NCBI RefSeq assembly: GCF_003711105.1
Contig: NZ_CP023865.1
Coordinates: 2,020,001-2,084,000 of the forward strand
DNA length: 64,000 nucleotides
Source: Actinoplanes teichomyceticus ATCC 31121
GTDB taxonomy: Bacteria > Actinomycetota > Actinomycetes > Mycobacteriales > Micromonosporaceae
Direction: 5' to 3'
The position numbers were made by a program, and so were the translations under genes. Position 1 is the first letter of the stretch; the number at the start of each line of letters is the position of its first letter. Below, one piece after another: positions 4,397 to 12,717 of the stretch. A model generated the notes under the pieces. The model was not told where the DNA came from, searched no databases, and saw nothing but the letters and a program-made list of their open reading frames with translations.

Positions 4397-4794
4397 ACCG
4401 ACCGCGGCGCCCCGCGCCGGGGAATCACCCGGGTCTGCAGGCGCGGCGTCTCGCGGGTCGAGTGGCGCGCCGGTTCCTGCGACGGCGGGCGCCGATCACG
4501 GGCCCGCTTCCTGGTCCCCGGTGGGTGAGGCTCTCCGGTCCCCGCTTGTGGGGCATTCCGGCCCCGACGGGCGTGAGCTCTCCGCTCGAGCGCGCTCGGA
4601 GTGTGAGCTCTCCGCCCGGCGAGCCCGGAGTGTGAGCTTTCCGCCCGAGCGCGCGCTCCGAGTGTGAGCTTTCCGCCCGAGCGCGCGCTCGGAATGTGAG
4701 CTCTCCGCCCGGCGAGCCCGGAGTCTGAGCTTTCCGCCCGGCGCGCCCGGAGCTGGTGACGAGCGCGGGCGAAGGGGCGGCCCCGCGTTCGTCA
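4397..4794. other. Intergenic region between TetR and GtrA-like genes
   Basis: About 400 bp separating two convergent genes. The right half is the hairpin repeat array at 4573-4752. The left half has only GC-rich sequence with no credible start, ribosome-binding site or family match. Confidence 0.5.
4573..4752. repeat. Array of six 29-32 bp hairpin repeats
   Basis: Units start at about 4573, 4603, 4632, 4664, 4696 and 4725. Each opens with GTGAGCTYTCCGCC (the last with CTGAGC) and continues with a self-complementary core such as CGAGCGCGCGCTCG or CCGGCGAGCCCGG. Two core types alternate. The array lies between two convergent genes and resembles a bacterial REP-type palindrome cluster. No associated transposase is next to it. 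Confidence 0.7.
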
Positions 4795-5634
4795 CTAGCT
4801 CCGGGCGGTCAGGTGCTGGCGGCGGTTGCGGTGCCAGGTGCGGATGCGTCCGGCGGGGCGCTGGTTGAGGACGCCCGGCCCGGAATGGCTGGAGCAGAGA
4901 CGCGCGGTGGGGATGGGAGCCAGCGTGCCCAGGCAGGCGAGGACCGCCAGGGGCAGGCCGCCGGGAGTGCCGCAGGCCGTGCGCAACGCGTCGCCCGGAA
5001 CGGCCGTGGTGAAGTCGGGCGTCCCGGCGGCGGTGGGCGCGCCGGGCGTCCGGGGGAGGGGGCGGGCGCCGGTCGCGGAGGTGCGGACGAAGCGGCGCAG
5101 GGCGGTGCGGCGGGAGCGGCGGCTGCGGATCGTGCCACCCGGGACCTCGCCGGCGGTGGCCGTCGCGGCGGTGGCGGACTCCGGCGCGGGGGTGTGGCGG
5201 CGGGCGGCGAACACCCAGCCGCGCAGGATGAGGTAGCGGGCGCCGCCCACCACGCTGCCGGTCAGGGCCAGGATCAGCGACTCGGTCAGCGCCGACGGGT
5301 GCGGTCCGGCTATGCCGCTCAGCCACGGGGCCACCGCGAGGTTCGCCAGGTAGACGACGACCGACGTGAGACCGGCTTCCCAGTGCAGGCGGCCGATCGC
5401 CGAGGTGGTCACGTTGAAGGTGATCCGGCGGTGGGCCTCGGTGTTCGCCGGGGTCACCACGAGCAAAGCCAGCCAGCTCGCCCAGGTGGCCGCGAGCACC
5501 TCGCGCACGGAGACGTAGACGATCGTCTGCAGGACCGTGCTCAGCGCGCCGACCAGCATGAACCACAGCAGCTGGCGGGGCACGGTCGCGCTCCACGCGG
5601 ATGGGCGGGCGAGCCGTCCGGTCGGACTAGGCAT
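4795..5634 (-). CDS. GtrA-like family membrane protein
   Basis: Predicted 279-residue protein with four hydrophobic segments: RQLLWFMLVGALSTVLQTIVYV, an ASWLALLVVTP segment with NTEAHRRITF, a TSVVVYLANLAVAPWL segment, and ESLILALTGSVVGGARYLILRGWVF. This order, with the Asn/Arg-Phe after helix 2 and the Arg-rich end of helix 4, matches GtrA, linked in other bacteria to moving lipid-linked sugars for cell-wall glycosylation. The C-terminal about 120 residues are low complexity, Arg/Pro/Ala-rich. The start at MPSPTGR is chosen because a longer frame would run through the palindromic operator. No glycosyltransferase partner is adjacent. Confidence 0.75.
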   Translation of the reverse strand: MPSPTGRLARPSAWSATVPRQLLWFMLVGALSTVLQTIVYVSVREVLAATWASWLALLVVTPANTEAHRRITFNVTTSAIGRLHWEAGLTSVVVYLANLAVAPWLSGIAGPHPSALTESLILALTGSVVGGARYLILRGWVFAARRHTPAPESATAATATAGEVPGGTIRSRRSRRTALRRFVRTSATGARPLPRTPGAPTAAGTPDFTTAVPGDALRTACGTPGGLPLAVLACLGTLAPIPTARLCSSHSGPGVLNQRPAGRIRTWHRNRRQHLTARS

Positions 5635-5672
5635 GACTGAACGCTTTCGGACAGCGATGGGTACCGCCGTAG

Positions 5673-5711
5673 TGTCAACATCGTTGACGGGCCCTGTCAA
5701 CGCCGTTGACA
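5673..5711 (-). promoter_or_regulatory. Tandem palindromic operator upstream of the GtrA-like gene
   Basis: Two inverted repeats spaced 22 bp start to start. At 5695-5711 TGTCAAC-GCC-GTTGACA is perfect. At 5673-5689 TGTCAAC-ATC-GTTGACG has one mismatch. Both are 17 bp with 3-bp centres, about two helical turns apart, and end 39 bp before the chosen start codon. On the minus strand each also contains TTGACA, so repressor binding would cover a possible -35 box. The format suits a TetR-type dimer pair. Confidence 0.7.
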
Positions 5712-6160
5712 CCGTGATGCAGGTTACCCTGCGCCATCGTTTGGTGGCGGTGTGAGGTGGGTTCTGTCCGTTTTCATGGACCGGTTCAGGGTAGAAGATC
5801 CGATTTGGCGCACCCGGTTCGGCCGGCTTGACGCGCGGACGACCTGAGGATCTGCAACCTTGCCGTTACCGAGCTGTTTCCGATCAGCGATGCCGGATCA
5901 CGGGACGGGGCCTCGGCCGTACGCCGGTGGTCGCCGCCGGCGCACCATGCGTCGCTCCGCGGCGGCGGCCACCGGCCACGCCGCGTGCGGCACGGCGGAC
6001 CGGATCCCGCGCACCGGTCCGGATCCCGCGCACCGGTCCGGTCCCGCGGTCCGGATCGCGCACCGGTCCGGATCCCGCGCACCGGTCCGGTCCCGCGGTC
6101 CGGATCGCGCACCGGTCCGGATCGCGCCGCCGGCGGCAGCGGCCGCGATCCGGCCCGGCC
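5712..6160. other. Intergenic region with GC-rich tandem repeats
   Basis: No credible gene. From about 5998 to 6125 the sequence is built of a short unit around GCACCGGTCCGGATCSCG, repeated about six times with a variant GGTCCCGCGGTCC interleaved. It sits downstream of the minus-strand biosynthetic operon and could fold strongly at its 3' end. Confidence 0.5.
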
Positions 6161-7396
6161 TCATCCAGCCGCGTCGGCGAGTGTGCCGAGGTAGTCGCGC
6201 AACGAGCGGGCCGGCCGCCATCCCTGCGCGCTCGCGCGCGCGATGTCGAGGACGACCGGGGCGGTCAGTTGCTCCAGGGCGTACCGGGAGAGGACCGGCT
6301 CGTGACGGGTGAGCCGGGCCAGACCGGTGGCCGCCCCGGCGGCCGCGCGGGCCAGGCCGAGCGGCAGGTGCCGCACCGGCACGCCGCAGACCGCCGCCAC
6401 CGTGGCGTCCCGGCTGTAGGCGGCGGCGTCGGCGATGTTGTAGGCGCCCGGCGGCCAGGCGGGCGCGGCCAGGCAGGCGTCGGCGAGGTTCTCCACGGCG
6501 GTCAGGCTGAGCCGGATGTCCGGGCCCGGCAGCAGGGCGCGGCCGCCGCGCACGGCGCGGCGCAGGCGGGGAAGCAGGTGCGGATCGCCCGGGCCGTAGA
6601 CGGCCCGCGGCCGCAGGACGACGGCGCCGGCGGCGAGGGCCAGGCGTTCCCCCGCGGCCTTCGTTCTCCCGTACGCGGTGAGCCCGCCCAGCGGCTGGTC
6701 CTCGCGGATCGGGGTGCGGCTGGGGGCGTACACGCTGGCGCTGCTCACCCAGACCAGCGGGCGGCCGTCGACGGCCTGCAGCAGGCGGGCGGTGCCACCG
6801 ACGTTCACGGCGTGGAAGCGTGCCGCAGCGGCGCGGCCGGGCGGTGGATCGCCGACCGCGGCGGCCAGGTGCAGCACGAGGTCGGCCCCGGTGAGGTCGG
6901 GGACGGCGCGGGTGGCGTCCCAATGCCGGTGCTCGCCCAGCGGGCCGGGGCGGCGACCCAGGCAGATGACCGTGGCGCCGGCCGCGGCGGCGGCCCGGGC
7001 GACCGCGGAGCCGCAGAAGCCGCTGGCGCCGGTGACCGCGATCCGCATCCCGCGCAGCGGCAGGCCGGCCGCGCTGTCCGCTCCACCGACCCTGCTGCCC
7101 GCGCCCCTGGCCCTGCTGCCCGTGCTGCCCGCGCCCCTGGCCCTGCTGCCCGTGCTGCCCGCGCCCCTGGCCCTGCTGCCCGTGCTGCCCGCGCCCCTGG
7201 CCCTGCTGCCCCCGCTGCCTGCGCCGCCGGCCCCGCTGCCTGCGCCGCCGGCCCCGCTGCCGCTGCTTGCGCCGCCGGCCCCGCTGTCCGCGTCACCGTC
7301 TGCGCGGTCCGCGGCGGGCCCGGTGGCGCGGACCGCGGGCCGGACGGGGTCGCCGTCGCCCGGGGCCGGGCGGTCCGCGGCGGCCGGGGCGGTCAT
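6161..7396 (-). CDS. NAD(P)-dependent extended SDR (OleD-like reductase/epimerase)
   Basis: Last gene of the six-gene operon. The catalytic module begins at MRIAVTGASGFCGSA, a Rossmann TGxxGxxG motif, followed by LVLHLAAAVGD, VNVGGTARLL and a YGRTK active site (Tyr-x-x-x-Lys) preceded by VWVSSASVYA. Members include sugar epimerases and OleD, which reduces the 2-alkyl-3-oxoacid made by OleA; beside OleA- and OleC-like genes the OleD reading is favoured but not proven. The ATG overlaps the P450 stop by four bases, giving a 116-residue leader of Gly/Ser/Ala/Arg repeats from four perfect-to-near-perfect 30-bp units. An internal ATG at 7048 would give a normal short protein, so the true start is uncertain. 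Confidence 0.8.
   Translation of the reverse strand: MTAPAAADRPAPGDGDPVRPAVRATGPAADRADGDADSGAGGASSGSGAGGAGSGAGGAGSGGSRARGAGSTGSRARGAGSTGSRARGAGSTGSRARGAGSRVGGADSAAGLPLRGMRIAVTGASGFCGSAVARAAAAAGATVICLGRRPGPLGEHRHWDATRAVPDLTGADLVLHLAAAVGDPPPGRAAAARFHAVNVGGTARLLQAVDGRPLVWVSSASVYAPSRTPIREDQPLGGLTAYGRTKAAGERLALAAGAVVLRPRAVYGPGDPHLLPRLRRAVRGGRALLPGPDIRLSLTAVENLADACLAAPAWPPGAYNIADAAAYSRDATVAAVCGVPVRHLPLGLARAAAGAATGLARLTRHEPVLSRYALEQLTAPVVLDIARASAQGWRPARSLRDYLGTLADAAG
7098..7217 (-). repeat. 30-bp tandem repeat, four copies, in frame
   Basis: Units at 7098, 7128, 7158 and 7188, the first three identical and the last with two changes. Being a multiple of three it encodes repeated Gly-Ser-Arg-Ala-Arg-Gly-Ala-Gly-Ser-Thr in the N-terminal leader of the SDR. 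Further imperfect 21-bp Gly/Ala units continue to about 7290. Confidence 0.85.
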
Positions 7397-8595
7397 CGGG
7401 TCGCCGCCAGGATCAGGCGGGACCAGCCGGGCAGCGCGCCGTGCCGGTCGACGCGGGCGCGGACCACCCGCGGGCGGTGCCGGGCCAGCGCCCGCAGGGC
7501 GTCGGTGAGCTGCCGGCGGGCCAGGCGGGCGCCGGGGCAGGCGTGCGTACCCGCGCCGAAGACCAGCTGCGCGATCTGCGGCGGAGCGGGATCGGCCGGG
7601 CACGGGTCGGTGCGGTGCGCGTCCACGGCGTGGCGGGCGACCAGGATCAGCCGGTCGCCGCGGCGCACCGGGCAGGAGCCCGCCGTGCCCGGGGCCGCCG
7701 CGACCCTGGGCAACAGCGGGGTGGGCGCGGTGACCCGCAGCAGCTCGGAGGTCAGCGCGTCCGGCGCGGTCTCGGCGTAGCGCCACAGGCCGGCGTCGGC
7801 GCACCAGGCCGCGGCCCGCGGCAGCGCGGCGACGGTCGTGTTGATCGCGGCCACGGCGAGCATGGCGGCGAGCGCCACACCGTCGGTCACCCGGTCCCGC
7901 GCGGCGACCGGCGCCGGGTGACCGGCGGGGCAGCCGTCGGGGCGCGCCGCCGGACCGGTGGCGCCGGTCGAGGCCACCAGGGCGGTCAGATCGGCCGCGG
8001 CGGCCCGCGCGGCGCGGCGCAGCCCGGGGCGGGGGATGCCGGGGAGGTGCTCCCGGGCGGCCGTGGCCGCCGCGGCGCGGGCGGCGGCCGCCAGCGCGTG
8101 CGGGTCGGCGTCCAGGTCGAGCAGGGCGGCGGCGGTGGCGCCGGCCATCTCGGCGGCCACGTCGACCAGATCGATCGTGGCGCCGCCGGCCAGCGGGGCG
8201 AGCCGCCGGTCGAGGACGGCGGTCCAGACCGGGCGCAGCCGTTGCACGCCGTCGGCGCCGAGGGCGTCGGCGAGCGCGCGCCGGGTGCCGCGGTGCTCGT
8301 CGCCGTCCTGGTCGAACAGCAGGCCGCCGCCGGTCAGGTCACCGGCCGCGCCTCCGGTGGTGCCGGCGGCGGAGCGGTCCAGCGGGATCCGGGTGAGGCC
8401 GTCGCGGAACGCGTCCCGGGAGTGGATCAGGACGGTGCCGCCGAGCCGCCGGACCGGCCGGCCACGGGTGAGCGTGAGCAGCGTGAACAGCACCGGGTGG
8501 CGGAACGAGTACACCCGCCGGTCGCGCCGCCGGGCCCGCCGCATCCCGCTGCCGGTCCGGCGCGCCGGGCGACCGGACGGTTCGGCAGGCGTCAT
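7393..8595 (-). CDS. Cytochrome P450
   Basis: A 400-residue haem-thiolate monooxygenase. Seen: the haem loop FGAGTHACPGARL with the Cys ligand at residue 353, and the K-helix ExxR in SELLRVTAP. The I-helix reads AMLAVAAINTTVAAL, where the acidic residue that normally precedes the conserved Thr is Asn. That pair assists O2 cleavage in most P450s, so the chemistry may be unusual. There is no membrane anchor, as usual for bacterial P450s. Translationally coupled: its ATG overlaps the upstream glycosyltransferase stop, and its stop overlaps the SDR start. Electron-transfer partners are not encoded nearby. The likely role is oxidation of the operon's lipid-like product (inference). Confidence 0.9.
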   Translation of the reverse strand: MTPAEPSGRPARRTGSGMRRARRRDRRVYSFRHPVLFTLLTLTRGRPVRRLGGTVLIHSRDAFRDGLTRIPLDRSAAGTTGGAAGDLTGGGLLFDQDGDEHRGTRRALADALGADGVQRLRPVWTAVLDRRLAPLAGGATIDLVDVAAEMAGATAAALLDLDADPHALAAAARAAAATAAREHLPGIPRPGLRRAARAAAADLTALVASTGATGPAARPDGCPAGHPAPVAARDRVTDGVALAAMLAVAAINTTVAALPRAAAWCADAGLWRYAETAPDALTSELLRVTAPTPLLPRVAAAPGTAGSCPVRRGDRLILVARHAVDAHRTDPCPADPAPPQIAQLVFGAGTHACPGARLARRQLTDALRALARHRPRVVRARVDRHGALPGWSRLILAATR

Positions 8596-9344
8596 CGGAC
8601 GTGCACCTCGGTGGCGGTGGGCGGCAACCAGCGCCGGTCCCAGTACCACAGCAGGGTGCGGCGCGCGCCCCAGGCCCGCAGCCGGCGCAGGCTCGCCTCG
8701 ACCACGAGGTCCTCGGCGCGCACGATCCGGTCGGTGTGGCGGCGGGCGCGGTTGAGCAGGGTGACGTCCTCGGACCCGGCTTCCAGGGGCTCGCGGGCGG
8801 TGCCGCCGCAGCGCCGGTACAGGTCGGCGGTCAGGGCCAGGTTGTGGCCGTGGACCAGGACGTACGGGGTGCGGAAGTCCGGCGCCCGGTGCGCGCCGCG
8901 GTACCGGCCGTAGAGCGCGGCGAGCCGGACCACGGCCGGGAACACGTGGCGCTCGGCCAGGGACGGGTGCTCGTCCCGGCGCGGGACGCTGCGGCCGCAG
9001 ACCAGTTCGGCGCCGGAGGTCAGGTACGCGCGGGCGGTCGCCACCCAGCCGGGGCCGGGCCGGCAGTCGGCGTCGGTGCGGGCCAGCAGGGTGGCGCCGT
9101 GCGCGATGGCGTACCGGAAGCCGGTGTCGGCCGCCGTACCGGCGCCGGGCTCCGGCTCGGTCACCACCTCGATCGGGAACGGCGCGCCGCACCGGCGGAC
9201 CACGGCCGCGGTGTCGTCGGTGGACGCGTTGTCGACGACGACCAGGGTGAAGTCGGTGTCGGTCTGGGCGGCCAGGGCGTCCAGGGTGGCGCCGATCGAG
9301 GCGGCCTCGTTGAAGGCGGGCACGATGACGGCGAGGGGTCTCAT
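8592..9344 (-). CDS. GT2 family glycosyltransferase (first paralogue)
   Basis: A 250-residue single-domain GT-A protein. MRPLAVIVPAFNEAASIGATL begins the nucleotide-sugar fold. VVVDNASTDDT and the LLARTDADCRPGPGW segment carry the metal-binding Asp-Ala-Asp. It lacks membrane helices, so it is probably cytosolic or peripheral. It is clearly paralogous to the GT2 gene at 10985-11725 (shared ATLDALAAQTDT, VVDN-STD, LARTDADC and CGG-R segments). The start overlaps the ligase stop by four bases and the stop overlaps the P450 start. It probably modifies the operon product; sugar donor and acceptor cannot be read from sequence. Confidence 0.88.
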   Translation of the reverse strand: MRPLAVIVPAFNEAASIGATLDALAAQTDTDFTLVVVDNASTDDTAAVVRRCGAPFPIEVVTEPEPGAGTAADTGFRYAIAHGATLLARTDADCRPGPGWVATARAYLTSGAELVCGRSVPRRDEHPSLAERHVFPAVVRLAALYGRYRGAHRAPDFRTPYVLVHGHNLALTADLYRRCGGTAREPLEAGSEDVTLLNRARRHTDRIVRAEDLVVEASLRRLRAWGARRTLLWYWDRRWLPPTATEVHVR

Positions 9345-10954
9345 CGGCGTACCTCGGCTCGGGCGAACGCGGCGGCGGCCGCGCGGTCCGGCTTGCGGGA
9401 GCGGCCGGCCAGCGGCACGGGCGCGAGGAGAACCCGGTCCGGCCGGGCGGCGCCCATCCGCCGCAGCGGGTCGCGCAACGCGGCCCGGACCGCCGAGGGG
9501 TCCGCGCCCGGTGCGGTCTCGACGATCGCCACGACCTGCTCGTCGCCGTCGGTGGCCGGGATCCCGACCAGGACGGCCAGGGACACGCCGGGCACGTGCA
9601 GGGACGGCTCGTAGAGTCCGGGATAGATGTTCTCGGCGCGGCGCAGGATCATGTCCTTGGCCCGCCCGGCCAGGACGACCCGGCGGCCGTCGAGGCGGGC
9701 GAGGTCGCCGGTGGCGATCCACTCGTGTGGTTCGGCGCCCAGATAGCGGTCGCAGACCCCGGCCCCGGCCAGCAGCAGCTCCCCGGCCCGGTCCGAGCCC
9801 GGAGCGGGACCGGGGGGTGCTGAACCGGGGCGCGTGCCGGGTCCGGGTCCGGAGGGTGCTGAACCGGGGCGCGTGCCGGGTCCGGAGGATGCGCCCGGCG
9901 CGGGAAGCTGCGGTGTGCCCGGCGCGGGGCGCGACGGCGCGCCCGGCGGCGGGCCGAGCCGGGCGCGGACACCCGGCAGCAGCTCGCCGACCAGGTCGCC
10001 GTCCGCGGTGTGCGCGGCCTTCCCGGCCGCTTCGACGGCGGCCGCCGGGAAGACCTCGGTCAGCGCGTACACGCACCACGCCTGCTCGGCCCCGGCCGCC
10101 CGGACCCGGTCGAGCAGCGCCGCCGAGACCGGCGCGGATCCGCTGTAGACCCGGCCGCCGAACGGGACCCCGGCGTCCAGCGCGGCCCGCAGCTGCGGCG
10201 GTGTCAGATAGGTGGCCTGTGGCCGCAGCGCGGTCATCTGCCGGGCCAGCGAGCCTGGCCGGCGGGCCGGCACGGCCACCGGCGCGCCCACGGCCAGCGC
10301 CGGGACCAGCACGAAGAACATCCCGCCGAGGATCGGCACGCCGGGCCGCGGTCGTACCAGCTCGGCGACCGCGCGCATCCCGGCCCCGAGTCCGGTCCGG
10401 GTGTGCACGACGGCGCGCGGGCTGGCCGTCGTCCCGGAGGTGAAGATGACCACCGCGTCCCCGTCGCCGTCGAAGACCGCCGGGAGCGGGCCGCCCGGCG
10501 GCAGGGCCGGGGCGGACCCGGGCAGGCGGCGGCCGACGGTGACGGTCGGGGCGAGCCGGGACAGGTCGGGCAGGGCCAGGCCGGCGCGGCGGGCCAGCGG
10601 CGCGGCCCAGCCGGCGACCGCCTGGGCGGCCGCGTCGGCGACGATCAGCGCCGGCCGCGCCAGCGCGAGCCGGGCGAGCAGGACGTCCGGCCCGGCGGAG
10701 GGGTCGAGCACGGCGATGCGCAGGCCCATCCGGTACGCGGCCAGCAGCACCGCCAGGGCCCGCGCCCCCGGGCGCACGGCGACCCCGAGTGTGTCGCCGG
10801 GGCGCAGACCACGGGCGTGCAGGGCGGCGGCGTACCGGTCGCGAAGCTCGGCCAGGTCTCCCCGGCTGACCCGGCGGCGGCCCAGCAACGCCGGGGTGTC
10901 GTCGCCGGGCCGCAGGCCGGCGGTCAGCTCATCGAGCACGGCAGCGCCCGGCAT
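9341..10954 (-). CDS. AMP-dependent acyl ligase, OleC-like (ANL superfamily)
   Basis: A 537-residue adenylate-forming enzyme. Seen: P-loop VIFTSGTTASPRAVVHT, the motif YALTEVFPAAAVE, GDLARLDGRRVVLAGRAKDMI, and the C-terminal catalytic Lys in GRSRKPDR. The Ala/Leu-Thr-Glu-x-x-Pro form with following Val-Glu resembles OleC (YGATEALPVxSIE), which turns beta-hydroxy acids into beta-lactones, more than ordinary acyl-CoA synthetases. That reading is from memory and needs a tree. Residues about 345-400 are a Pro/Gly/Ala insert encoded by tandem repeats, between the core and the C-terminal lid domain. It starts 30 bp after the upstream GT2 gene without a strong ribosome-binding site, and its stop overlaps the next start. 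Confidence 0.85.
   Translation of the reverse strand: MPGAAVLDELTAGLRPGDDTPALLGRRRVSRGDLAELRDRYAAALHARGLRPGDTLGVAVRPGARALAVLLAAYRMGLRIAVLDPSAGPDVLLARLALARPALIVADAAAQAVAGWAAPLARRAGLALPDLSRLAPTVTVGRRLPGSAPALPPGGPLPAVFDGDGDAVVIFTSGTTASPRAVVHTRTGLGAGMRAVAELVRPRPGVPILGGMFFVLVPALAVGAPVAVPARRPGSLARQMTALRPQATYLTPPQLRAALDAGVPFGGRVYSGSAPVSAALLDRVRAAGAEQAWCVYALTEVFPAAAVEAAGKAAHTADGDLVGELLPGVRARLGPPPGAPSRPAPGTPQLPAPGASSGPGTRPGSAPSGPGPGTRPGSAPPGPAPGSDRAGELLLAGAGVCDRYLGAEPHEWIATGDLARLDGRRVVLAGRAKDMILRRAENIYPGLYEPSLHVPGVSLAVLVGIPATDGDEQVVAIVETAPGADPSAVRAALRDPLRRMGAARPDRVLLAPVPLAGRSRKPDRAAAAAFARAEVRR
9816..9887 (-). repeat. In-frame 33-39 bp repeat inside the ligase gene
   Basis: Two copies of a unit beginning GGTGCTGAACCGGGGCGCGT at 9816 and 9855. 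The first carries an extra six bases, so the reading frame is kept. They encode Gly-Pro-Gly-Thr-Arg-Pro-Gly-Ser-Ala-Pro in the linker between the ligase N- and C-domains. Confidence 0.75.
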
Positions 10955-10984
10955 GGCGGGGACGGGTGATGGTCGCCGGCATGG

Positions 10985-11725
10985 TCACCTCGGGTCCGGG
11001 GTGAGCGGGCCGCTGCCGCGGTCGAGGTACCACCGGGCGGTGCCCAGCACGCCGTACGCGGTGAGCCGCCGCGTCGAGTTCTCCACGACCATCTCCCGGC
11101 TGCGGACGATCGACGCCGTGGTGCGGCGCACCCGGTTGAGGAACATCCGGTCGGTCGGCGACGGCCGCCGCGGCATCCCGCCGCAGGCCTGGTAGAGCGC
11201 CGCGGTGATGGCCATGTTGTTCCCGGCGTGCATCCGGTACGGCGTGCGGTAGCCGTGGCCGCGGTGCGCCGGGCGCAGCCGGCCGAACGCGGCGGCGATC
11301 GTGACCAGCCCGGCGAAGGCCACCCGCCCGGCCGGGCCGTGCTCGTCGCGGCGTGCGGTGATCCGCCCGCACACCATGCCGGCCCCGCCGTGCAGCGCGG
11401 CCCGGGCCGCCGCCACCCAGCCGGGCCGGGGCAGGCAGTCCGCGTCGGTACGGGCCAGGAAGCCGGCCCCGGCGGCGATGGCGTGCCGGAACCCGGTGTC
11501 GACGGCGCAGCCGACGCCCTTCTCCGGCTCGGCGATCAGGCGCACCGGGAACGGGGCGCGGCCGGCGAACGCCTCGACCGCGCCGGCCGTGGTGTCGGTC
11601 GAGCCGTTGTCGACCACGAGCAGGGTGAAGCCGGTGTCGGTCTGGGCGGCCAGGGCGTCCAGCGTGGCGCCGATCCGGGCGGCCTCGTTGTATGCCGGGA
11701 CCACCACCCACAGGTTCGTGGTCAC
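10985..11725 (-). CDS. GT2 family glycosyltransferase (second paralogue)
   Basis: A 246-residue GT-A fold protein: NLWVVVPAYNEAARIGATL, LLVVDNGSTDTT, and FLARTDADCLPRPGW with the Asp-Ala-Asp metal motif. No membrane segment. It is a paralogue of the GT2 gene two positions downstream; the pair flanks the ligase gene, suggesting tandem duplication and division of labour (two sugars or two sites). Its ATG overlaps the stop of the ketosynthase-like gene by four bases. Substrates are unknown. Confidence 0.88.
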   Translation of the reverse strand: MTTNLWVVVPAYNEAARIGATLDALAAQTDTGFTLLVVDNGSTDTTAGAVEAFAGRAPFPVRLIAEPEKGVGCAVDTGFRHAIAAGAGFLARTDADCLPRPGWVAAARAALHGGAGMVCGRITARRDEHGPAGRVAFAGLVTIAAAFGRLRPAHRGHGYRTPYRMHAGNNMAITAALYQACGGMPRRPSPTDRMFLNRVRRTTASIVRSREMVVENSTRRLTAYGVLGTARWYLDRGSGPLTPDPR

Positions 11726-12717
11726 GAGTGCTCCCAGACCATGGTCATCATGCTGACCCCGCCGCCGAGGCCCATGAAGAGCACCCGGTCGCCCGTGGTC
11801 AGCTGCGGCGCGACCCGGGCCAGCTGTACGCCGAGGGTGGCGCTGGCGACGTTGCCGAGCCCGGTCACGGTGATCTCCAGCCGGTCCCGGGGCACGCCGG
11901 TGACCTCGATGAACCGGTCCAGGTAGGGCAGGGTCACCTGGTGCACCAGGATCCGGGCGTAGTCGGTGTGCTCCAGGCCGGTGCGGGCCCGGACCCGGTC
12001 CAGGATGCTGGCGCCGACCTTCTCGAAGACGCCGCGCAGCCGGTGCCCGTCGCCGGTGAAGTAGGTGTGCTCGTCGCCGCGCGGGTGCCGGGAGCCGCCG
12101 CCCGGGATGCCGCCGACCGTCCAGTGCTGCGAGTGCGTCTCGGTGTCGATGTCCAGGATGCCGCCGCGGGCGACCGGTTCGAGCACCACGGCGGCCCCGG
12201 CGTCACCGAAGGTGAACCCGGCGAACGAGCGGCGCGCCTGCTGGAGGCTGTCGACGCGGCCGCGCATCGCCCGGGTCGGAGTCTCGCCGGTGACCACCAG
12301 GGCGCGGCGGGCCCGGCCGGCCAGGATCATCGCGCGGGCCAGGTCGATGCCGTTGACGAAGCTGTTGCAGGCGTTGGTGACGTCCAGCGCGTGCGCCCGG
12401 CTGCCGAGCTCGGCCTGCACGATGTGCGCGGTGGCCGGTTCGACCATGTCGCGGGAGGCGGAGGCGAACAGCAGCAGGTCGATGTCGAGCGGGTCCAGGT
12501 CGGCGTGGGCCAGGGCGGCGCGGGCGGCGTGCACGGCGAGGGTGGAGGCGTACTCGCCGGGGCCGGCGACGCGGCGCCGCTCGATGCCGGTGAGCCGGGC
12601 GAACAGCCCGCGGGGCAGGCGGACGCCACCGGCGGTGGCCACCCCGTCCTGCAACTGCCCGGTGGTGACCTCGCGCTCCGGAAGGTACGCGCCCACCCCG
12701 GTTATCCCGACATACAT
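11722..12717 (-). CDS. Thiolase-fold ketoacyl synthase III, OleA-like
   Basis: A 331-residue FabH/OleA-type condensing enzyme and first gene of the six-gene operon. The Cys-His-Asn triad is visible: Cys117 in DVTNACNSF, His259 in ILVHQVT and Asn289 in GLGNVASAT. Residues 93-97 read Glu-Pro-Ala-Thr-Ala, the position where OleA carries its catalytic Glu (alignment from memory). OleA joins two acyl chains head to head; FabH homologues elongate malonyl-ACP. With OleC- and OleD-like neighbours and no acyl carrier protein, the head-to-head reading is favoured. The start at MYVGITG fits the family; it lies 16 bp after the kinase stop, so co-transcription with the kinase is possible. Confidence 0.85.
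   Translation of the reverse strand: MYVGITGVGAYLPEREVTTGQLQDGVATAGGVRLPRGLFARLTGIERRRVAGPGEYASTLAVHAARAALAHADLDPLDIDLLLFASASRDMVEPATAHIVQAELGSRAHALDVTNACNSFVNGIDLARAMILAGRARRALVVTGETPTRAMRGRVDSLQQARRSFAGFTFGDAGAAVVLEPVARGGILDIDTETHSQHWTVGGIPGGGSRHPRGDEHTYFTGDGHRLRGVFEKVGASILDRVRARTGLEHTDYARILVHQVTLPYLDRFIEVTGVPRDRLEITVTGLGNVASATLGVQLARVAPQLTTGDRVLFMGLGGGVSMMTMVWEHS

Follow-up and report, generated by a model that had tools for sequence, protein, structure and literature searches.

A six-gene operon of Actinoplanes teichomyceticus ATCC 31121 probably directs the synthesis of a glycosylated lipid by an OleA-type route, in which, to judge from the sequence, a 2-alkyl-3-hydroxy acid would be formed, glycosylated and activated by a ligase. 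It is located in a 64,000-nucleotide stretch of contig NZ_CP023865.1 (positions 2,020,001 to 2,084,000; hereafter the window), in a genome consisting of one contig of 8.29 Mb. An earlier reading of the DNA sequence alone (hereafter the original prediction) described six minus-strand genes in one run, and these fill positions 12717-6161 of the window. They code for a synthase (KS), two glycosyltransferases (GTa and GTb), a ligase (LIG), a cytochrome P450 (P450) and a short-chain reductase (SDR):

KS: 11722..12717, minus strand; predicted OleA-type thiolase-fold synthase of 331 aa, with Cys117-His259-Asn289 and Glu93-Pro94.
GTa: 10985..11725, minus strand; family 2 glycosyltransferase (GT2) of 246 aa, with TDADC and the conserved Asp192.
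LIG: 9341..10954, minus strand; adenylate-forming ligase of a sister clade of OleC, with a CoA-ligase-like A8 segment.
GTb: 8592..9344, minus strand; second family 2 glycosyltransferase, a paralog of GTa.
P450: 7393..8595, minus strand; heme Cys353 and ExxR present, with Asn252 at the position of the I-helix acid.
SDR: 6161..7396, minus strand; extended short-chain reductase of a sister clade of OleD, with a repeat-rich extension as its first ~112 residues.

The enzyme classes, the catalytic residues, the conservation of the operon, the positions of its enzymes in trees, the lack of an OleB match next to it, the difference between LIG and OleC and the fusion of glycosyltransferase (GT) and LIG are all read directly from sequence. 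Of the 156 KS relatives in named genomes the best 80 were kept for locus comparison, those closest to the window being Actinoplanes. KS, LIG, P450 and SDR are all present in 68 of the 80 loci and keep one order with zero violations, so that a chance arrangement is excluded and the operon is real and conserved. Among these complete loci GTa occurs in 67 and GTb in 36 (at least 60% identity). Eleven of the 12 loci without part of the core run off the end of the sequence, and the twelfth (L100) represents a real loss. Crude clustering of neighbouring genes in the 80 and 68 loci yielded no near-universal partner beyond the six, and small partners could be missed because the open reading frame caller over-predicts in high-GC DNA.

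Within the genus, 54 of 60 genomes (own included) encode KS at 64-100% identity, one of which, G022, carries an OleC variant, and six lack it. No comparable KS was found in the 40 genomes searched from the rest of the order, where the best match was 48% identical over part of the protein (G090). In a class-level sample, 28 of 394 genomes (own included) have a KS match with an E value of at most 1e-50, in some cases within a true oleABCD operon; gene context was inspected in the own genome and 14 others, leaving aside eight at 68-73% identity plus G732, G516, G623, G404 and G463. The operon is found in Streptomyces and several Micromonosporaceae, and LIG-type ligases are encoded in Actinomadura-, Streptosporangium- and Thermomonospora-type genera. 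One copy in Streptomyces viridifaciens is carried on the linear plasmid pKVP2, where its genes are annotated as ketoacyl-ACP synthase III, glycosyltransferase family 2, acyl-CoA ligase, cytochrome P450 and NAD(P)-dependent oxidoreductase.

The motifs and tree position of KS point to an OleA-type synthase, for which condensation of two acyl-coenzyme A (acyl-CoA) molecules is predicted. The Cys-His-Asn triad of a thiolase-fold synthase, as first read from the DNA, is present (Cys117-His259-Asn289). Glu93-Pro94 aligns with the Glu-Pro of OleA, whose hallmark, according to the available excerpts of Smith et al. 2020 (PMC7064751), is a glutamate (OleA position 117) that precedes a proline and is donated to the adjacent active site. 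Glu93-Pro94 and Cys117 are found in all 82 family rows, the His in 81 and the Asn in 80; Glu-Pro, NAC, His and Asn are also present in 10/10 distant relatives and 14/14 OleA rows, while none of 17 FabH-type rows has a Glu at the OleA position. In a tree of 52 rows (omitting KAS_L122, with its broken frame, NltB_L117 and KAS_L123, whose KS is also that of L225), the window KS and the distant relatives belong to a 24-row clade (100/99), which includes the KS of four operons (L221-L224; 35-38% identical to the window KS) with OleB, OleC and OleD genes of their own. All 17 FabH-type rows form a clade of their own (100/100), and KS did not group with them. The OleA-type synthase originally proposed is thus borne out by the Glu-Pro, the other motifs and the clade it shares with synthases of four ole operons. 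In L221-L224 a synthase of this clade has classical OleC and OleD as neighbours, which speaks for the same reaction and suggests that such a KS functions with classical Ole partners.

The ligase had been described as OleC-like, and in this case the tree and the motifs part ways. In unrooted trees LIG forms a separate clade next to OleC, with all ten other CoA/AMP ligases of a limited sample on the other side (100/98; fam_L046 and fam_L058 left out), and topologies that unite it with MenE (p 0.024) or the FadD group (p 0.014) were rejected for a smaller set that leaves out own_L159. The position apart from the other ligases and next to OleC therefore stands, but as a clade beside OleC and not as OleC proper. 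Against the OleC-type profile PRK09274 the window LIG scores 69.8 bits and three relatives 68.8, 72.9 and 78.7, which is generic, compared with 317, 549 and 598 for three OleC/NltC references. With NF045786 the window LIG reaches 37.8 bits and two of the relatives 42.4 and 51.2, the third being not listed, and the references 243-518. The CoA-ligase-like A8 segment [KR]DM...NxYPGL is kept in 71 of 74 family LIG rows (the DNA ends within two of the three exceptions); [KR]DM is found in 17/17 LIG rows and [KR]D in only 1/14 OleC rows. Conversely, the OleC A10 motif PxDxRHx[AS]K is present in 14/14 OleC, matched by pattern in 0/7 distant LIG and seen in none of the ten closer LIG rows aligned. LIG is consequently rejected as a true OleC on its profile scores and motifs, despite its place next to OleC in the trees. 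The Thr-Glu-x-x-Pro noted in the ligase is indeed present (T299-E300-x-x-P303), and the A5 pattern TEx[LFM]P occurs in LIG and 13/14 OleC and is absent from the ten other ligases. TExxP as such was rejected as a diagnostic, since the Escherichia coli fatty-acid ligases FadD and Aas (TECAP) and FadK (TESSP) carry it too. Together these features suggest that LIG is a sister of OleC and retains the hinge of ligases passing an acyl group to an outside acceptor. The LIG clade may be a place to study the step from acyl-activating enzyme to beta-lactone synthetase.

The two GT2 enzymes are paralogous, as stated in the original prediction (58-59% identity), and both have PF00535 and the DxD of family 2. 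TDADC is conserved in 77/78 GTa, and Asp192, invariant across 19 aligned GTs, fits an inverting enzyme, inversion being the mechanism of GT2 enzymes; a profile search of solved structures returned generic GT2 enzymes. LIG is accompanied by a GT in 67/68 complete loci and 9/9 distant LIG loci, and no GT match was found in any of the five KS-clade loci with OleC, four of which have OleB. Furthermore, GT2 and LIG form a single chain in at least four database proteins (P0127-P0130; best 120 of 378 matches), three of them named Thermomonospora, with P0127 corresponding to L213 itself, a fused GT2-LIG of 801 aa.

Several loci carry other combinations of these genes. L218 and L226 have KS and P450 and no LIG or GT match; L226 (G090, 7243-10246) is a KS-P450-SDR group in which the KS frame is broken. 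In L225 (G022, 14972-11360, minus strand) a KS and a P450, 62% and 49% identical to those of the window, precede a true OleC (45% to NltC). LIG and GT matches are missing from this locus, which is possibly a beta-lactone version of the cluster. A BrkB-type membrane domain is fused to GTb in L074 (13252-15024, plus strand), and a separate brkB gene precedes GTb in L084 (13711-14547, plus strand); BrkB is a possible membrane partner or exporter.

Both an extended SDR and a P450 had been recognised in the operon, and the extended-SDR motifs and the P450 heme Cys are both present. Pfam PF00067 gives the P450 only 17.2 bits, under the cut-off. OleD is the best NCBIfam match of all three family SDRs tested (window 69.6 bits, relatives 65.1 and 88.7), all far under the 580 bits of the profile cut-off. 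Across 68 rows the Ser, Tyr and Lys motifs are nearly invariant, and the family SDRs form their own clade adjoining OleD in a tree with only four other reference rows. The profile match, motifs and tree position thus favour the assignment as an OleD-like reductase, which is probable. OleB, said to be absent, had no match at any of the 80 loci with one OleB query (E 1e-6), and the best match in the own genome (33% identity) lies elsewhere on the chromosome.

For the pathway, the substrates, the order of the steps and the product are inferred from these enzymes. KS would catalyze the non-decarboxylative condensation of two acyl-CoAs to a 2-alkyl-3-keto acid, with Cys117 as the nucleophile and Glu93 from the partner subunit as the base, and SDR would reduce this to the 2-alkyl-3-hydroxy acid. 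GTa, plus GTb where present, would add sugars onto hydroxyl groups, one of which may be introduced on the chain by the P450. The carboxylate would then be adenylated by LIG and passed to an external acceptor, either CoA or a sugar hydroxyl, a step that would replace both the OleC step to the beta-lactone and the OleB step to the olefin. The operon would mark an actinobacterial OleA branch whose ending looks unlike the known beta-lactone or the known olefin.

The original prediction knew of no described pathway with such genes; in fact a five-gene form was already in print. Actinoplanes atraurantiacus was reported to have an OleA-GT-OleC-P450-OleD cluster, with no oleB in the genome, for which a glycosylated beta-lactone was predicted (excerpts of Smith et al. 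2020, PMC7064751). Compared by its published description, this cluster has the same gene types in the same listed order, in the same or a neighbouring genus, and is probably the same operon minus GTb, as in L052 (Paractinoplanes). It differs from that of the window, which has a second GT, and the published account names the ligase OleC. The ligase distinction, the linkage of GT and LIG, the breadth of distribution and the product hypothesis are additions that were not stated earlier in the literature searched; nothing on this cluster beyond PMC7064751 was among the top literature matches, most subscription papers lying outside the search. The oleABCD olefin operons share with the window an OleA-type KS and an OleD-like SDR, and their OleC stands beside its ligase in the tree, whereas the window has no OleB match, a ligase of a different clade, and GTs and a P450 in addition. 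The lipstatin (lst) and nocardiolactone (nlt) clusters, like the window, have OleA, a ligase and an OleD-like reductase without OleB. L117, labelled nlt-type from its gene set, differs from the window by its second KS gene and by a true OleC, which scores 598 bits against PRK09274.

Several observations weigh against the proposed OleA-type route to a glycosylated lipid. A second clade comprises ten other OleA, which are only 25-31% identical to the window KS (eight in operons with OleB, OleC and OleD; L134 and L140 assigned by motif and tree position only), and the 17 FabH-type rows, at 26-33% identity, are no farther from it. Because the second OleA clade is separate and no closer than the FabH-type enzymes, OleA-type kinship is supported while a single OleA clade is not demonstrated. 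Two actinobacterial OleA clades, one of them almost inactive, were also reported in the excerpts of PMC7064751. The gene set is moreover separable, given that L107 has LIG and no GT, and L100 keeps KS and SDR and lacks GTa, LIG and P450. The only assayed enzyme of this kind known to us is the A. atraurantiacus OleA. It was active on p-nitrophenyl hexanoate and gave no reaction with the tested acyl-CoAs, with little protein available (excerpts of PMC7064751). Finally, hydroxylation by the P450 is uncertain because the usual I-helix acid is missing in all 69 P450 rows, where that position is occupied by Asn (56), Thr (9), Ser (2) or Ala (2). P450s usually carry an acid there.

LIG might instead act as OleC and close a glycosylated, hydroxylated beta-lactone, which would accumulate in the absence of OleB, as predicted in print for A. 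atraurantiacus (Smith et al. 2020, excerpts of PMC7064751) and put forward in the original prediction. The lack of OleB matches in the 80 loci, the proximity of OleC to LIG among the ligases compared, the TEx[LFM]P shared with 13/14 OleC, and the pairing in L225 of KS and P450 of the operon family with a true OleC are consistent with this. Nevertheless, it is rated as unlikely because LIG is without the OleC features, having no A10 motif, an A8 segment that is kept and generic OleC-profile scores, and the nlt-type locus L117 uses OleC proper. A beta-lactone ending is thus doubtful, LIG being not OleC proper; of the originally predicted glycosylated, oxidised beta-lactone or beta-hydroxy lipid, the beta-lactone is not established and the glycosylated hydroxy acid is favoured.

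That LIG acts first, supplying KS with acyl-CoA substrates made from free fatty acids and leaving a free glycosylated beta-hydroxy acid as product, appears somewhat less probable again. It would suit the CoA-ligase-like A8 segment and the best relatives of the LIG profile among solved structures, which are malonyl-CoA and fatty-acid CoA ligases, that is, generic CoA ligases; however, the fusion to GT suggests a late step for LIG, the genome encodes two FadD-like ligases elsewhere (34-35% identical to the E. coli FadD), and LIG stands beside OleC in the tree. There is a slim chance that the P450 is a non-catalytic activator of glycosyltransferases like the EryCII-type proteins. Its best NCBIfam match is TIGR04515, the P450-derived glycosyltransferase activator (43.2 bits, cut-off 343), and the I-helix acid is missing throughout, yet the heme Cys and ExxR are intact in 69/69 rows and the GTs here belong to family 2, not to the family that EryCII-type activators serve. 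An ordinary chain-extending, FabH- or PqsD-like KAS III is most improbable and was rejected for KS, for although the PQS biosynthetic enzyme 3h76 tops its solved-structure matches (112.5 bits, ahead of 3row and 3s21 at about 90 bits, which we take to be Xanthomonas OleA) and identity to FabH-type rows reaches 33%, the Glu-Pro and NAC motifs, the split from FabH and the clade shared with four ole operons speak against it.

The closest known product type able to use each of the operon's enzymes would be, to judge by product structure, the actinomycete glycolipid macrodilactones. Glucolipsin is a dimer with glucose on the 3-hydroxyl of 2-methyl-3-hydroxy acyl chains, the carboxyl being bound to C6 of glucose, and the fattiviracins and cycloviracins contain trihydroxy acids with one further glucose (excerpts of PMC4365757). 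It is tentatively suggested, as a conjecture with rather low odds, that the operon is a route to such macrodilactones or their close linear kin. KS would join a long and a short acyl-CoA (the latter being propionyl-CoA where a 2-methyl branch results), SDR would form the 3-hydroxyl that GTa glucosylates, a distal hydroxyl would be made by the P450 and glucosylated by GTb, and LIG, as an OleC relative with the A8 hinge, would esterify the carboxylate onto the sugar. LIG and GT would then be an alternative ending to OleC and OleB on the same OleA clade, and the operon a gene candidate for these compounds; no gene cluster for glucolipsin-type macrodilactones was among the top literature matches, with most subscription papers outside the search.

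The six genes are tightly packed. Four junctions with four-base ATGA overlaps had been claimed; all four overlap by four bases, three of them (LIG/GTb, GTb/P450 and P450/SDR) with ATGA and KS/GTa with GTGA. The 30-bp gap described lies between GTa and LIG and applies with LIG starting at the ATG at 10954. Because several homologs begin MLD- at residue 6 of the window LIG, a GTG, the true start is probably near 10939, which would make the gap 45 bp.

A gene for a Ser/Thr protein kinase (~14080-12734, minus strand; Pkinase 135 bits) stops 16 bp short of the KS start. Five of 14 Actinoplanes loci (L031-L035) have this kinase 15-16 bp upstream, and L056 has it upstream at a distance of 370 bp; it may be co-transcribed with the operon in one clade. 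In-frame tandem repeats are found within LIG (9805-9967, giving a repeat-rich stretch at about residues 335-390) and SDR (7073-7286, 30-bp unit), the latter in the N-terminal ~110-residue extension, which is covered by none of the best SDR matches in 69 relatives, all beginning at residue 113 or later. The P450-SDR spacing differs among other Actinoplanes (e.g. L037). Further tandem arrays occur just downstream of the operon and near a GtrA-type gene (4795-5712), at 5995-6127 (49-bp unit) and 4573-4752 (93-bp unit).

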